Source: Chrysomallon squamiferum (Eukaryota > Mollusca > Gastropoda > Neomphalida > Peltospiridae). Taken from it: DNA of 64,000 nt. The notes under the pieces are model-generated. The model made no database searches and was not told where the DNA came from. It saw nothing but the letters and a program-made list of their open reading frames with translations. The position numbers were made by a program, and so were the translations under genes. The stretch spans positions 14,351,495-14,415,494 of the forward strand of contig CM022672.1 of assembly GCA_012295275.1 (NCBI GenBank), given 5' to 3'. Positions 5,218 through 42,496 of the stretch are shown here, in pieces. How positions within the stretch are numbered: position 1 is the first letter of the stretch; every line of letters starts with the position of its first letter.

Positions 5218-5728
5218 TTAAAATAATGATATTTAAAAAATGTTTAAAATAATAAAATTTAAAAAGAGACTAATTTAATTCATTTCTGATTTCAGTATTC
5301 CTTAATCACATTGTTTTAAAGAAATATTTTAAAAATTAATTATTATTTAAATGCTGTTTTACTCTTAGTAACAATTAGTCTGTTACAAAACTCCAGCTGA
5401 AAACAATTCTTTAAAATGATCTTTTCCACAGACAGGGAAGGACATAACACAGTCTTAGCACAAACAAATCATAGAACAATGTCTGGAACAGGAAAAACAG
5501 TGAAGGGAAATTTGTTCACACTGGGCTGGAATGGGGAAATAGCCAATCAGGTAGAGACACTGAAAGTTTATAAGTGATGTGAATTTCAAAAACCCTGAGG
5601 ATAAATAATACACAGTGAATTTTGAAAACTGACGTAAAACATTCACTGGAAAGATAAAAAGGTTCGGGTAATATGCACATGTAATTAATTCTGAAGTCAC
5701 GTGCTTCCAGTTTCATGCTAATACCAAC
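3708..5728. other. Intron with AAT, AAAT and CA microsatellites
   Basis: About 2 kb of intron containing (CA)n near 3987-4013, degenerate TAATAC/ACAACA repeats at 4443-4600, (AAAT)n at 4683-4708 and (AAT)n at 4761-4825 and 5186-5216. Open frames here are low-complexity poly-Tyr/Leu shadows. No gene or transposon was recognised. Confidence 0.75.
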
Positions 5729-5782
5729 CAAGTGGGTGTCGATGCCTTCAGCTACTACTGCTTCATCTTGTTTTTCTTTTAT
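5729..5782 (-). CDS. Ferlin micro-exon (54 nt), linker between C2D and the next C2
   Basis: 54 nt, phase 0 at both ends; acceptor ttaccactcag, donor TTG|gttggt. It encodes IKEKQDEAVVAEGIDTHL, bridging ELLAAFELFL (6910-7059) to MTGKDLPFLPP (3609-3707). Its position matches the variable linker between these motifs in vertebrate ferlins. Since 54 is divisible by three and the donor is weak, skipping would keep the frame. A MITE lies 79 bp upstream in the transcript direction. Confidence 0.75.
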
Positions 5783-18226: not shown

Positions 18227-18327
18227 CTTTCCCAGGTTCAGATCATCATATTCATCAGGTAAGTCAGAATATTCTCTTGTTGAACCATAGAAGTTTATAA
18301 AACATGGTCCAAAGGTGGGCAAGAATC
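18227..18327 (-). CDS. Ferlin exon: [20 protein letters not shown]
   Basis: 101 nt, phase 1 in and phase 0 out; acceptor gaattttctag, donor AAG|gtgagc. It encodes [20 protein letters not shown], then SDLPDEYDDLNLGK, matching [20 protein letters not shown]...NTGK. It is the common exon that both alternative C2C exons (22045-22121 and 24828-24904) must join in phase 1. Confidence 0.98.
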
Positions 18328-18349
18328 CTAGAAAATTCATAATTTTTAT

Positions 18350-19458
18350 AATTATTTTTAATTAAAAATATTATAAATCTTGGTGAATTCAGAATTTTAC
18401 TTAAGTCTAAACCACATTCCAAAATAATTATAAGACATTATTAATTAATTTTCATTATGACTTATCTTGACCATAGTGCACAGAAAAAATAAACCAGTTT
18501 TAGTTATATCTGACAAATAATGCATAGGATTAACATTATTATTAAACATGTAGTAATTAGATAAAAATATATATTTATAACAATAGCTATTTAAAAATAG
18601 AATTATTTAGGAATACACCTAAGTTTTATTTATAGGCCTTAATAAAATGTAATAAGTATAATTAAATTTAAATTAATAAATTATTTGTTTAAAATTTAAA
18701 GAAAGATTTTAAATATAAAAATAATTATTATTTGCTTTAAAAACAACAAACCCGCATGATAAATTTTAAAAGAAGTTTGTGAAGAAAAAAACAACAAAAA
18801 ACAAAGTATTTGAAACAGCAAAAAAAAAAAAAAATTTAATAAATAGTAATAAAAATAATAATAAAATTAAAAATATCAAATGAATAACTGAATAGTTTGA
18901 ACTATTTTTCATTTTGAAAACATTTAATACACTATATTTTAACACAATAAATTTATTAATTTGATTTTTTTTCTTCTTCCTTTAAATTTATTTTTTGAAT
19001 TTAACTTAATATAAAAAATGTGATACGTTATAATCATTCATTTTAATATATAATCTGTAACTAACCAATTAAAATATTTTTGTTTAAACTTTATTGAAAT
19101 TAAAATATCTTTAATATGAATCTTGCAAATATAATTACCCATAAATTAATTAATTATTAAACTAACACATAACATGAAGACTGATTTTTAAAGAAACTGT
19201 AATAGCTAAGGAGAACAAAACACAACAACTACAGAACCACATTCAAACACATTTCATTCAAAGAAAGAACAAAAGGGAAAACAGGACAAGAAAGAAAAAA
19301 CACCACAAACATAAAAATGTGCAATATCATACATATTACATAGGTATATAATTAATATATCACATGGAATTCAGAACTTTGTAAGAAACTGATATAACCT
19401 GAAATTATCTTTTTTTTTTTTTTTCACTTTCACTTGAAGGTTACAATATCCAACACTG

Positions 19459-19495
<37 letters not shown>

Positions 19496-22030
19496 GCATC
19501 ACCAACTGAAATCTATATTAAGCTGGTATATAAGCTTTTTGATGTAATATTTGTTTGGTATACATAAACAGACACTGATAAGGAAAATCAGTTTTATTTC
19601 ACTCTCTTGGATTTTCAAAATAGTTTCTAATGTTCTGACAATCATTTTCTGGCTTCCATGTGAAAAATAGTAACATGCAAGTTAATAAGAACTACTAGAA
19701 AATGTATGTTAAAAATTATATGCATTAGAAAATCATGCAGATTATTGTTTATAGTTAGTTTTGGTTTATTTTTCTATTTTTATTTTTTATTTTTATTTAA
19801 ATAATAATTATATATGTCAGGACTTATTGGCCAGTATGTATAAAAATAATAATAATATATTGTGTTACATATTTAAACTGTGAATATTTTACATCAAAAT
19901 AATATTACATTTCTACCAGAAAAACAAATTCAGTTAGAATAAAATAATTGTGTAATACAGATTAAATCCATTTTAATATCAATGCAAATTTTTTATTATA
20001 TATGAATTTATAAAGAAAAAAAAAAAAAAACCCAACAACAAACAATTGCTCCTACAGTAAATTCATTAGTAAAGGAATAATTTTATTTTATTATTATTTT
20101 TTTTTTAATTATTTATTATGTTTTATTTCCCCTGTGTGTAATTTAGATAAAATTCTACTGATTAATTTTCCATCATTGGCTATTTATTTGAAGTTAAGCA
20201 TTTACTAAAAAAACCCTCCCAAAAACAATGTATAAAAAAAAAAAAATTAGAAAAAAACTATGAAAAGGATTTGTAACTACTAGCCTGTTTCATTTTTTTA
20301 TTTATTTATTTATTTAAAATTATTTTTATTTATTAATTTTTAATTATTATTTTTCAAACATCATTATTTTGGACTTTTTGTTTTTCATTATGGCATAAAT
20401 AATTATTTACTTTGATAAAAGAAACTGATTTTGTAATTTCCAGATAAATAATGATTTTAGCTTTTGTTTTTACAGTCACTTTAACAATTGTATATCCCTA
20501 ACCTAACCTTTTCTGATAACACGTGTACCACGAAAGATACAGAATAACTGTTATATCCCTTCTAACAAGAGTGGAATATTTTAAATATATTTTTAATTTT
20601 AGGAAATAAAAAATAAAAAGTCAACTGATGTTTATAAGAAGAAGAAAAATTATGTAGAAAATTAAAAAAAAAAAAAAAAAAAATGATATAATATTTAAAA
20701 CTATATTAAAAATCTGAATGAACCCATTTACCCTCATCATTTTCTGCAAGTGAAAAATATAAACATTTACAAAATTTACATCTTCAAGACTCTTTCTTGG
20801 TTAACTTGGAAAACAGATATTACAATTCTTATTGTTTAACTTGTAAAAATATTTACAATAATTAGCTTGAATGTAATAAAAACACATAGTTATCTTATTA
20901 AAATAATAACAATTAAAAAAAAAAAATTAAAAGATTTTTAATTTTAGTATATAAAAGTTTAGTAAACATTAAAATTTAAGCTAAAAGCTGTAAACAGCTA
21001 ATTTAAAACTTATGCCAAACAAAAAAGCCTAAACTGAAAAATAATAACAACAAAATAAATACATTAACTTTAACGTATAGATTAAATTCTGTATTTAAAA
21101 ATAATAACTAGTAATAAATATTTTGAGTGTTTGTAAAAATAAAATGTGATTACCAAATCTGTCACAAACTGAATATATTATACACATAAACATATATTTT
21201 ATTTAACCAATTCTGTGTGTGTGTGTGTGTGTGTGTTTCTGTCTTTTTCATTTTGATATTCTCATTTTAAGGTGTATTTGTTTTGAATAATTATTTTTAT
21301 TTTTATTATTATTATCACATATATACATATTATTACTATTATTATTTTTTTTGTGGGAATGGAGTTTATACATACTTTACAGATATTCTTCCTGATTTTG
21401 AACACAATCAGTTTAAATAATAGTAACAAACATATATTAAATATGGATCTTATTTCTGTCAAGTTTATCGTATGTGGCTTTTATGTTTTAGCCACCCATG
21501 CTAGATATTTGTTATATGTAATGAATTAGGACAAAATTCAGTTTCTGGATCATAACATTTTTAAAAATTAACTTTCTTGTTACTATTCTGTAATTTACTA
21601 TTTAATTAACAAAATTTATCCAAAATTCTGTTGTACACACTGAACCAAAAGGACATAGAATTTTCTTTTAAATTTTAACTTTTCAATTTTTTTTTATACT
21701 CATTCAGTTTGTGACAAAAAGGTAATTCAAAACATACAGTAACAAATTAAAAATCTACAAATTAAAAAAAAAAAAAAAAAAAAAATAGAAAAAAATAAAT
21801 GATAAATAAATAAAAAATAAAATTTTAAAATATAATTTTTCTTAACAGTATAAATCTATCTTTAAAAATTTCTACAAATGCCAAAACATAACTCCTACAT
21901 TTATTTATTATTTTTTTTATTTTTTTTTTAAATTTTTATTTTTTTTAAAGTTCTGGCTGCAAAGCACTCAAAACAGTTATATGAAGCTTTAAAATTTCAG
22001 CTTTACAGAAGATTTTAAGAAATATTTTTG
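18350..22030. other. Long AT-rich intron, nothing coding
   Basis: 3.7 kb of A/T-rich intron with homopolymer runs (for example near 19412, 20020, 20665, 21765) and a (TA)n run at 19465-19494, plus (GT)n at 21217-21236. I see no exon, RNA gene or transposon terminus. It separates the distal alternative C2C exon from its constitutive partner. Confidence 0.75.
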
Positions 22031-22044
22031 CTATAAATAATCAC

Positions 22045-22121
22045 CAGTATCTCCTGGAGATGAAATTAAAGAAATTGGTAAAAATATTGTCCCAACATTG
22101 TCGTCTTCATTGAGTCGGTCC
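22045..22121 (-). CDS. Ferlin alternative C2C exon, version B (DRLNEDDNVGTIFL)
   Basis: 77 nt, entered in phase 2 and left in phase 1; acceptor ttcatgctgcag, weak donor G|gtgatt. It encodes DRLNEDDNVGTIFLPISLIS, then SPGDTG. The shared upstream exon ends RDW, so this supplies the D-R-L-x-x-x-D calcium loop 3 and the following strand of C2C. The myoferlin equivalent is DRLTKNDVVGTTYLHLSKIAASGG. It has the same length, phases and layout as 24828-24904. Confidence 0.93.
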
Positions 22122-22319
22122 CTGCAGCATGAAAAGAGACAAGCATATAAAAAAAAAAAGCAATGTTAGTATATTCTGAGAACCACTGGTAACCACTAGC
22201 AACCAACCATTACCAACCATTTATAGTAAAAAAAAACATTTGATGTAGGTTGTGGAACATCCATAAAATATGTATTCCCAGAATGTGCTTTGGCCATTAT
22301 GTATTGTGAGTTATGATAT

Positions 22320-22362
22320 ATATATATTTATTCAGTGTGTGTGCATGTATAATTGTATGTGC

Positions 22363-22393
<31 letters not shown>

Positions 22394-22664
22394 GTGTTTG
22401 TGTGTGTGCTGCATGTGTATGTGTATGTACAGGTGTACTCATGTATGTGCTCATGTGTGGAATACACTAATAGACTGATACTTTTTTTTGTTTTTTTTTT
22501 GTAGGGGACTGTCCACACTTTAGAGACATCCGTTTAGTTAATATAAATTAAGCAGTGTCCCTTACATCTGTGAAATAATGTGCACATTGTTATAAGCATA
22601 AATGATAATAATAACAACAATAATAATAACAATAATGAAAACAGCAACAATAACAACAAGAACA

Positions 22665-22713
<49 letters not shown>

Positions 22714-22715
22714 TT
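22320..22715. repeat. GT and AAT/AAC microsatellites
   Basis: Interrupted (GT)n at 22340-22430 and AAT/AAC units at 22605-22712, lying between the two alternative C2C exons. Confidence 0.85.
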
Positions 22716-22974
22716 CATATTATCTTCTTGTCCATTTACTTTGCAGATTGCTAGATTTTAATATCTGACCACAGAACACAAAAGAAGATCAGACTTTATC
22801 AAAATGATATTAGTTCCAAGACACCTTTTCTTCTATCAAATTATGCAATAGTTATTAAATTATTATTGTTGTTGTTTTTGTTTGTTGTTTTTTTTGTCTG
22901 AAAGTTACTTATATAACTGATGAATTTCTGCTTAAAATAATAATTCATTAAACTGTAGTATACTGTTCAAAATA

Positions 22975-23165
22975 ATAATAGTAATAAATGATATTAATAA
23001 TAATCATCATCATCATCATCATAATCATATTCGTCATCATCATCATAATCATATTCATCATCATTATAATCATATTTGTCATCATCATAATCATCATCGT
23101 AATCATCATCATCATCATAAACATCATCGTAATCATCATCATCATCATCATCAACAATAGCTCAA
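22975..23165. repeat. (ATC)n degenerate array
   Basis: About 190 bp of CATCAT/AATCAT/TCGTCA-type units. Open frames on both strands are Ile or Met runs and not genes. Confidence 0.85.
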
Positions 23166-23583
23166 CAATAATCCCTGGTTAGTTATTTTTCTATATTACA
23201 TGCTGCTCAATACTGTAAAACCTTTACCAACATCCCAGCTGTTTATTATATTACATATAACATCTACCTAGCAACAGTATTAGTTATTAACACATAATAA
23301 CCATGCCTGTACAAAAAAAAAAGCTTTCTTTTCGCACCATGTAAGTCTCGTGTCTTATTATACGGGTGATATATGCATGCGTGAGATACAAGGTATACTA
23401 CATCTACAAGGGTTGGTTATGGCTGTACAGACAATGGAATGAAGCATCTTGGGCAAGTTATGTTGAGACAAATGCATGCCGTTATTTCCTGTATATCCAT
23501 GCTATCATTTTTTTTTGCAACATTTCACATCAGGCAAGTGCAGACAAGACATTTGGAATTTCAGGGGAAGGACTCCATCAGAC

Positions 23584-23698
23584 AGACACACTCACAGACA
23601 GATAGACAGACAGACAGACAGACAGATAAAAAAAAAATAAACAAGTGTTTAGTAGTTTGAGTTGTCCACACATTCAGAAAAACAGATGTACATTTTGT

Positions 23699-23730
<32 letters not shown>

Positions 23731-23815
23731 TATAATTATAATAATAATAATAATAATAATTATAATAATAATAATAATATTTATTATTATTATTATAATC
23801 ATCATCATGATGTTA

Positions 23816-23862
<47 letters not shown>
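23584..23862. repeat. (GACA)n, AAT and TA arrays
   Basis: GACA units near 23590-23626, AAT/TTA units at 23700-23800 and (TA)n at 23817-23860 in the intron between the alternative C2C exons. Confidence 0.85.
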
Positions 23863-23866
<4 letters not shown>

Positions 23867-24283
23867 CACACACATCAACTAGTCTAAATAAAAAAAAATT
23901 CTGAAATGAAAAATATTTTAAAATGATAAGTGAAATGTTTGTTATTTGTTCTGGGATTAACTTTTTAAATTTATTTGGTTTAATATCTACACAATTATAT
24001 ATTTTGTTGCATTGTAGACATATAACCAAATAAATTGGAAAAATTCCTACCATAATATAAACAACAAATTTTTATGTTAAAATGTTATTTTAATACTTAA
24101 AAAAAGAAATGTGTGGACAAGTCAAACATACTAAATAAATATCTGCTTCACTAACTGGCACATTTCATTATGAATATTGTTGACTTTTTATTCAATGGGC
24201 ATGAAGTAAATATCACAAATATATTTACAAATTTAAAACCTTCAGTCTCCTGTTGATTTTTATTTATTTACATTCTAAAAAGG

Positions 24284-24299
24284 CAATAATAATAATAAC

Positions 24300-24358
<59 letters not shown>
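24284..24358. repeat. (AAT)n microsatellite
   Basis: Over 20 AAT units about 470 bp from the donor of the alternative exon at 24828-24904. A poly(A) run follows at 24640-24670. Confidence 0.9.
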
Positions 24359-24363
<5 letters not shown>

Positions 24364-24638
24364 TAAATTATGATTATCCAAGTCGGTGTAAAGGCCAAAT
24401 TGCAAATTAATTTTTTTTAATATCATATTTTTCTGAATCAAACTTATTTCGAAATTTCCAAATGCAAGAAAAAGATGAAATTTTTTTTAATAATAATAAA
24501 TAAATAAATAATAATTATGTTTTGAAAAAAATAAATAAATAAAAATAAAATAAACAAATAAAAGATAATAAATTTGAACTAAACTCTTTCATAATTTTAA
24601 CCCAAAGATAACCAAAAATAAAACACACGCAGAAATTC

Positions 24639-24672
<34 letters not shown>

Positions 24673-24827
24673 CTTAATTCCAAAAATTAATTTAAAAGAA
24701 ACAAAACAGTTAACAGTTTTATTAAAAACTCCCATGACACATTTTGAAAAGACAAGTCAACATGACTGCAATGAAGTGAGCCAGGGTGAGGCAGACGAAC
24801 AAACTGAAAAGGAAGAGAGAAACAAAC

Positions 24828-24904
24828 CCGACTCCCCAGGAGCTGACATAGAGGGAAGGTTGAGATGTCCAGAGCAGACTGTGTCATCCTTGTTCATTCG
24901 ATCC
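24828..24904 (-). CDS. Ferlin alternative C2C exon, version A (DRMNKDDTVCSGHL)
   Basis: 77 nt, entered in phase 2 and left in phase 1; acceptor attgcttactgcag, weak donor G|gtttgt. It encodes DRMNKDDTVCSGHLNLPSMS, then APGESG. Dysferlin reads [24 protein letters not shown]. It keeps the calcium-loop Asp residues but has a different strand after the loop (VCSGHL rather than VGTIFL). It is homologous in position and length to 22045-22121, and including both exons or neither would break the frame. Confidence 0.93.
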
Positions 24905-26581: not shown

Positions 26582-26625
26582 CAGTCTCTGATCATGAACT
26601 TGATTCGTTCACACATGGATGGAAA
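26582..26625 (-). CDS. Ferlin exon: C2C FPSMCERIKFMIRDW
   Basis: 44 nt, phase 0 in and phase 2 out; acceptor ctctttcag, donor TG|gtaaat. It encodes FPSMCERIKFMIRD and two bases of Trp, matching FPSMCEKMRIRIIDW. It is the shared upstream partner of the two alternative exons, each of which begins with the G that completes the Trp codon. Confidence 0.97.
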
Positions 26626-27055: not shown

Positions 27056-27124
27056 CTGTAATCCCAGTCGTAGTTGCTGATTCCATTCAGGATGATCACA
27101 GCAATACATGATTCTTGATTTTAC
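27056..27124 (-). CDS. Ferlin exon: C2C CCDHPEWNQQLRLGLQ
   Basis: 69 nt, phase 0 at both ends; acceptor taatttcag, donor CAG|gttatc. It encodes VKSRIMYCCDHPEWNQQLRL, then GLQ, matching [23 protein letters not shown]. Confidence 0.95.
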
Positions 27125-38059: not shown

Positions 38060-38345
38060 CTCTGTTTTAATACTATATTTTACCTGCATTTTATTATTAT
38101 TGTACCTGTATTTTATATCATTTTACATAAATAATTACTATTTCTTCTTCAGACAAACCCTTTAAGAACTACAATTATTTTAACTTTGTATTAATATTAT
38201 TTTACCTGCATTTTAACAATATATCACCTGAATTAAGAACTACAGTTATTTTAACTTTGTATTAATATTATTTTACCTGCATTTTAACATAAGTATTAAT
38301 ACATATTTTTGCCTGTATTTTAACATAATTTTACCTGCATTTTCA
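38060..38345. repeat. Repeats on the donor side of the alternative exon
   Basis: aactttgtattaatattatt, then ttacctgcattttaac occurs twice in full (near 38183 and 38254). Shorter ttacctgcatttt copies lie near 38090 and 38329. On the minus strand each gives CAG|gtaaaa, a donor-like site. Confidence 0.7.
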
Positions 38346-38388
38346 CGCCCACAGGTACAAAACTAAGAAAGACTGTCATCAGACAAAC

Positions 38389-38694
38389 CTGAAAGTGCAT
38401 GGGTTTACTGTCTGTTAACATCGCTCGCTTGCTTTTCTTCTTCGTGGACTGAAGAAATTTTTTCTTCTTTCTTTTCTTCCCCCCTCCATTGTCATCGAAG
38501 TCTTCAACATCGTGGACGGGTTCATCGTCGGTGTCGGACAGCAGTGGTCGAGTCTCTGGGTCCTTTGCCGGTTTAGAACTTTCCAGTTTAGATTTTTCCG
38601 GTTTAGAATTTTCCGGTTTAGAACTTCCCGGTTTCGAACTTTCCGGTTTAGAATTTTCCGGTTTAGAATTTTCTGATTTAGAATTTTTTTTCAT
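38389..38694 (-). CDS. Ferlin alternative 5' exon with its own ATG (pentapeptide repeats, basic tail, KPMHFQ)
   Basis: 306 nt of coding sequence, phase 0 at its donor CAG|gtttgt. It starts MKKNSKSE and has about seven SKPEN-type pentapeptides. An acidic DDEPVHDVEDFDDNGGG, then KKRKKKKF and KKKSKRAM follow, and the end is SKPMHFQ. That end equals the KPQDFQ end of 42301-42496 and joins IRIRVIEA. An in-frame TAG lies 30 nt upstream of the ATG, and the upstream sequence is A-rich on the coding strand, giving only a weak acceptor (gctttttag at 38732). This suits a second exon with a short 5' leader. It would give a ferlin without C2A. Confidence 0.75.
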
Positions 38695-39275
38695 TTTGTA
38701 TAGATTTTTTTTTTTCTTTTTTATCTATGTTCTAAAAAGCTTTATTTTTTTAATTTATTTATTTAATTTTATTTTTGTTATTATTATTATTATTATTATC
38801 ATTTTTTTTTTTTTCTTTTGATGAAAAATATTTTTTTTTTGCCAGTTTATCTTTTTTTGGTGACTGTTTTTTTTTTTTTCAGATTCTTTTTATTATTATT
38901 ATTTCAAAACACTTGTTTTTGTTTATTTATTTATTTTAGTTTTATTATTATTAATGCTTCTTTTTATTACTTTTTTTATTTGTGATTTATTTGATTTATT
39001 TTTTAAAACTGTATTCTGATAACAAAAATTTATGTTCTGTGTTTTCAATCATTAAAATGATATTTTAGCAAAATAGCATTACATTCATAGTTTATCTTCC
39101 ACAGTCAAAATGGATTAGGTTAACTTGAATAAAATCCAGTCTCTTTATACCAACATCTTCACACATTACTTCAGAATAAGAAAATAATGAAATCTGTGCT
39201 GAACAATGTTGAATAAATTTTCTGATGTTAAAACTGAAATTAAACACTTTCAAACTATTATCAAATCTGGATCCA

Positions 39276-42300: not shown

Positions 42301-42496
42301 CTGAAAGTCTTGTGGTTTGAATGAAAGATTTCCCTTCACTTTACGCTTCCCTTTTCTTCGTTGTTTGCGCTTCAGTTTGCGCTTTGATGGTTTGCCAGTG
42401 GCAGCATCCACAACATCCACACCATCTTCTTCATCCTGTGTCTCTTCCTCTCCTCCTCTTCCTCCTCTTCCTCATCATCCTGACCAATCACTCTAC
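42301..42496 (-). CDS. Ferlin exon: acidic and basic linker ending KPQDFQ, with a frame disruption
   Basis: Acceptor gttgttacag, donor CAG|gttagt. From the acceptor, phase 1 gives GRVIGQDDEEEEEEEE. The 3' part in another frame reads TQDEEDGVDVVDAATGKPSK, then a highly basic KRKQRRKGKRKVKG and SFKPQDFQ. The latter equals the SDKPQDFQ end of this linker in dysferlin and myoferlin. A single-base change in the GAG/GAA run (about 42440-42460) would join them. Otherwise an internal AG at 42470 would restore frame but give an RGG-type start. The low-complexity run makes an error plausible. Confidence 0.85.

Follow-up and report, generated by a model that had tools for sequence, protein, structure and literature searches.

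The ferlin gene and its 77 nt exons A and B

The window analysed here is a 64 kb stretch of DNA whose minus strand carries much of a ferlin gene of the dysferlin/myoferlin type. We placed 26 exon peptides of this gene, including those of the two exons termed A and B below, in the order 49802 to 2097; the exon borders near 42301–42435, 38389–38562, 5690–5767 and 2097–2231 are not exact. Pfam analysis of the joined translation identified three C2 stretches together with FerI and FerA, a domain combination that places the gene among the type-I ferlins (the dysferlin/myoferlin group). In the PDB, the C2C region matched myoferlin and dysferlin best, followed by otoferlin, with E values against myoferlin of 3.9e-38 for the form of the protein containing exon A and 1.6e-39 for the form containing exon B. 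The C2C region of the gene corresponds to myoferlin residues 468–616, which we take to represent C2C and the part that follows it. The features relevant to this report are as follows.

2097–49802, minus strand: extent of the recognised ferlin exons, with Pfam C2 (three stretches), FerI and FerA; the gene runs on past the window, and its C-terminal transmembrane segment would lie outside
27056–27124, minus strand: constant exon 7 of C2C, 69 nt
26582–26625, minus strand: upstream constant exon 8, 44 nt, encoding FPSMCERIKFMIRD and the TG of a Trp codon
24905–26581, minus strand: intron preceding exon A, 1677 nt
24828–24904, minus strand: exon A, 77 nt, encoding DRMNKDDTVCSGHLNLPSMSAPGES; AG/GT borders, open and in phase, analysed in the selection test
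22122–24827, minus strand: intron separating exons A and B, 2706 nt
22045–22121, minus strand: exon B, 77 nt, encoding DRLNEDDNVGTIFLPISLISSPGDT; AG/GT borders, open and in phase
18328–22044, minus strand: intron following exon B, 3717 nt
18227–18327, minus strand: downstream constant exon 10, 101 nt, beginning GFLPTFGPCFINFYG

Elsewhere in the gene, exons 16 and 17 encode paired GWxWDSDW motifs, which are presumably linked to DysF. In Pfam this region scored 27.3 bits for Pex24p (cut-off 26.8), without a match to the DysF model. An open frame at 38320–38724 on the minus strand contains repeated NSKPE/SSKPE-like units directly upstream of the exon DPETRPLLSD..., and may represent a repeat coding for part of the linker ahead of the second C2 domain.

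A sequence-only reading of the window had proposed that two 77 nt exons of the same phase can each join RDW to GFLPTFG, and both were found, flanked by AG and GT. Exon 8 ends in ...GACTG, and the first G of either A or B completes the TGG codon for Trp, while at their 3' ends both exons contribute one base of a Gly codon that is completed by exon 10. The resulting translations are RDW-DRMNKDDTVCSGHLNLPSMSAPGES-GFLPTFG for the A form and RDW-DRLNEDDNVGTIFLPISLISSPGDT-GFLPTFG for the B form, and with A only or B only the frame remains open through exon 11. The same reading held that inclusion of both exons or of neither would break the frame, and this was borne out: the A+B form (154 nt) meets a stop within exon B and the form with neither exon meets one within exon 10. 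As 77 is not divisible by three, both of these combinations shift the frame, and their stops come within about 20 codons. The use of A or B alone is the sole frame-keeping use of the two exons. A and B are adjacent homologous exons of the same phase that are in frame singly and break the frame when both are included or both omitted, as in a mutually exclusive pair.

The introns around A and B are long, and the gaps between the exons placed downstream of the pair (18227 to 7059) measure 368–1600 nt. Upstream, the gaps between exons vary from 430 nt to 5219 nt or longer, and long introns are thus not special to the A/B pair.

Homology and age of exons A and B

The peptides of exons A and B are identical at 10 of 25 residues and align without a gap at a BLOSUM62 score of 52, in line with the residue-for-residue alignment described at the outset. 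In a six-frame scan of the window, the next best sites reached 22 with the A peptide and 27 with the B peptide, and no third copy of the exon was seen. We also compared all 26 exon peptides, those of A and B among them, with the whole window by tblastn with the low-complexity filter on. A and B matched each other at E 0.001, and besides this match and the self-matches the sole cross-match under E 0.05 was between exons 16 and 17, which are ordinary exons of the ferlin gene; no further intronic exon copies were found at E < 0.05 in this search. The intron flanks of A and B (400 nt on each side) share no convincing similarity.

Beyond the window, a protein search of the assembly returned matches only at this locus and at one ferlin on C6, with at least 6 matches for the A form (E up to 0.001) and at least 7 for the B form (E up to 10). 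The spliced A-form DNA matched the assembly at the three exons found here and nowhere else, and no retrocopy of the A form was found. A pattern search of viral contigs (9 matches) and genome contigs (43 matches) gave no confirmed match, as expected for an animal gene.

The distribution of identities over the codon is uneven. Codon positions 1, 2 and 3 are identical between A and B in 13, 20 and 7 of 25 codons, where composition leads us to expect about a quarter at each, and the corresponding P values are 0.004, 3e-8 and 0.42. Synonymous divergence is saturated (pS 0.76), with a dN of 0.52. Since third positions are random and second positions have been kept, A and B have most likely both been coding sequences under selection since an ancient duplication. 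The pattern is that of two copies maintained by selection, as judged on 25 codons from one genome. It also bears on the reading in which an open frame within an intron has come to resemble the exon by chance. The introns are long and AT-rich, and short AG...GT pairs are frequent in the window (112 on the minus strand scored at or above one test case, described below). Against this stand the identical length and phase of the two exons, the identity at second positions, the tblastn match and a score of 52 where no other site exceeds 27, and we regard a chance origin as hardly credible.

We simulated the decay of a neutral copy, setting the indel rate at 10% of the substitution rate and counting every indel as breaking. 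About 25% of copies remained intact at 0.1 substitutions per site, falling to about 7% at 0.2 and about 2% at 0.3. When divergence reached 0.5 substitutions per site, 0.2% of exons were intact, and 0.02–0.04% were both intact and still scored at least 52 against the starting exon. At 0.75 none of 20,000 runs per starting exon gave such a copy, for either exon. The simulation is decisive only if the copies are old, and not for a young copy; the saturation of dS indicates that they are old, although it implies age without dating it.

Exon B is the closer of the two to other ferlins. It agrees with dysferlin at 12 of 23 positions (A, 9 of 23), with myoferlin at 11 of 23 (A, 9), with otoferlin at 9 of 22 (A, 6 of 22) and with the genome's second ferlin at 10 of 22 (A, 7 of 22). 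The B form also has the higher Pfam C2 score (28.4 bits, versus 23.5 bits for the A form). Because B is nearer to the known ferlins and scores higher, it is most likely the canonical, ancestral form and A a derived one.

The same comparisons with dysferlin, myoferlin and Pfam C2, together with the better donor and pyrimidine tract of exon B (see below), could be taken to mean that B is the only exon in use and that A is a non-functional relic of the duplication. However, exon A has neither a stop nor a frame break, its splice sites are intact, and its third positions are saturated relative to B while its second positions are kept. In the simulations at 0.5 substitutions per site, no more than 0.04% of neutral copies were still intact and this similar. 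We consider a relic improbable. Marginally less probable still is a reading in which A and B are both spliced in without forming a strict pair, and in which A mainly gives rise to truncated or decay-triggering transcripts that set the amount of ferlin. The stop that the A+B form meets in exon B is what one would expect of an exon linked to message decay, but exon A joins in frame when used alone, and its protein sequence has been preserved at second positions and at the loop Asp residues, for which a pure decay exon would have no need.

Our preferred reading, which we hold to be very probable, is that of an ancient tandem duplication of a 77 nt exon that produced a mutually exclusive pair, with B ancestral and A derived. 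Under this model a single ferlin exon would have been duplicated in tandem long ago, and the splicing machinery would pick A or B, and never both or neither, in productive mRNA, with the wrong number of exons leading to an early stop and probably to message decay. We infer exclusive use in transcripts, control by cell type and a change in how C2C binds membranes, either in its Ca2+ dependence or electrostatically.

Splice sites and intron sequences

We compared the splice-site scores of A and B with those of 22 donors and 20 acceptors from this ferlin gene. Both donors had been described as weak, and this stands in part for A (5.2 bits, above 6 and below 16 of the 22 gene donors) but not for B (7.3 bits, above 12 and below 10 of the 22). 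The acceptor of B scored 7.5 bits, inside the gene range of 0.1–10.6, and that of A scored 12.6 bits, which exceeds the highest value in the gene. The pyrimidine tract is poor for A (10 of 20 positions) and strong for B (15 of 20), within a gene range of 9–15. A branch-like CTAAT lies about 40 nt upstream of A, with an AG between it and the acceptor, and a branch-like TACTAAC lies about 45 nt upstream of B. Exon B looks like the stronger, default exon and A like the more regulated one, on mixed evidence in which neither donor is an outlier.

Some mutually exclusive pairs, though not all, depend on competing RNA pairing between docking and selector elements. Complementary 11-mers between the introns numbered 3, 0 and 1, with no excess over the means of 1.5, 3.7 and 1.85 obtained from 20 shuffles. 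The 8.4 kb region contains 990 inverted pairs of at least 18 nt, which derive from microsatellites. Splicing motifs were counted over the same 8.4 kb and compared with the number expected by length, and none clearly stood out: TGCATG was found 3 times (3.1 expected), GCATG 9 times (5.6), ACTAAY 8 times (5.6), PTB-type motifs 21 times (41.3) and CELF-type motifs 7 times (10.5), and Nova-type clusters were absent (5.6 expected). In these pairing and motif scans of the 8.4 kb, no mechanism that would enforce exclusivity is visible except the reading frame.

Exon B is flanked by AAT- and ATT-rich microsatellites (21275–21352 and 24288–24365) that are 76% complementary over 78 nt. If they paired in the pre-mRNA, exon B could be looped out; as repeats of this kind are common here, the complementarity may mean nothing.

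A candidate 12 nt microexon at 20743–20732 on the minus strand, AAAATGATGAGG, would keep the frame and add Glu-Asn-Asp-Glu ahead of GFLPTFG, near what we take to be the position of dysferlin exon 17. Across the 64 kb window, the minus strand offers 112 acceptor-donor pairs, 6–60 nt apart, that are at least as good, and we rejected the candidate as lacking evidence.

The swapped segment of the C2C domain

The loop-3 region aligns with myoferlin, dysferlin and PKC-beta without a gap, and with otoferlin with a one-residue gap. The first loop-3 Asp, in R-D-W, is constant and lies outside the swapped exon, and the second and last lie inside it and are present in both A and B. All three residues (D-x-D...D) align with those of PKC-beta (1a25) in both forms, as in a Ca2+-binding C2 domain, and we take them to be calcium ligands, as in the C2 domains of PKC and synaptotagmin. 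The alignments with PKC-beta, myoferlin and dysferlin agree with the earlier placement of the pair at the C2C loop with the loop Asp residues kept, as well as with the suggestion that the difference lies after the loop, since A and B differ over most of strand 7. The piece exchanged would be the second half of calcium-binding loop 3 together with strand 7.

Within this piece, the residue at the loop tip is E in B and K in A (K in myoferlin, H in dysferlin), and the residue directly after the loop is G in B and C in A (G in myoferlin, otoferlin and PKC-beta, A in dysferlin). The net charge is −4 for B and −2 for A. Exon A thus keeps the aligned Asp residues, but at the tip of the loop Glu is replaced by Lys, and strand 7 is altered. 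From the differences in charge and loop tip, the A form is expected to favour acidic membranes and to bind them more readily than the B form, and it is plausible that the swap tunes calcium or lipid binding of C2C. To our knowledge, the role of the ferlin C2C domain and its binding of calcium in cells are unsettled. A natural pair of C2C domains in which the calcium ligands are kept and the loop tip and strand 7 are changed represents a ready-made test of C2C function. If the model is true, the membrane response of a ferlin would be set by an internal splice swap, beyond the N-terminal C2A domain. More tentatively, and on balance we lean slightly against it, the C2C loop may be a splicing switch that produces two ferlins differing in Ca2+ sensitivity or membrane choice by tissue, one that is old and widespread in molluscs or beyond.

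We know of no mutually exclusive exon pair described at this site in ferlins, though the device itself is of a known kind. Tandem-duplicated mutually exclusive exons occur in Dscam, tropomyosin and pyruvate kinase M, where, as here, homologous neighbouring exons are equal in length and phase; A and B differ from these in lying in a ferlin C2 domain and in showing no pairing elements in the scans above. Alternative first exons of dysferlin yield C2A or C2A variant 1 and are reported to change Ca2+ dependence. As proposed for A and B, splicing there swaps part of a ferlin C2 domain, whereas A and B form an internal pair in C2C. Dysferlin exon 17 is optional and lies at the border of C2C strand 7 and GFLPTFG, a site that adjoins the end of the A/B exon, but it is an added, frame-keeping cassette and not a swap of the calcium loop. 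In Piccolo C2A, a splice insert near the C2 loops changes Ca2+ affinity; the location near C2 loops is shared with A and B, but the Piccolo insert is small and belongs to another protein family.

A comparison closer to hand comes from the genome's second ferlin (C6:20384377-20384996), judged otoferlin-like by eye. No second copy of the C2C loop was seen in 9 kb of its minus strand. Like the gene in the window, it has the C2C loop and a phase-1 intron directly before GFLPTFG; unlike that gene, it carries the loop and the preceding strands inside one longer exon.
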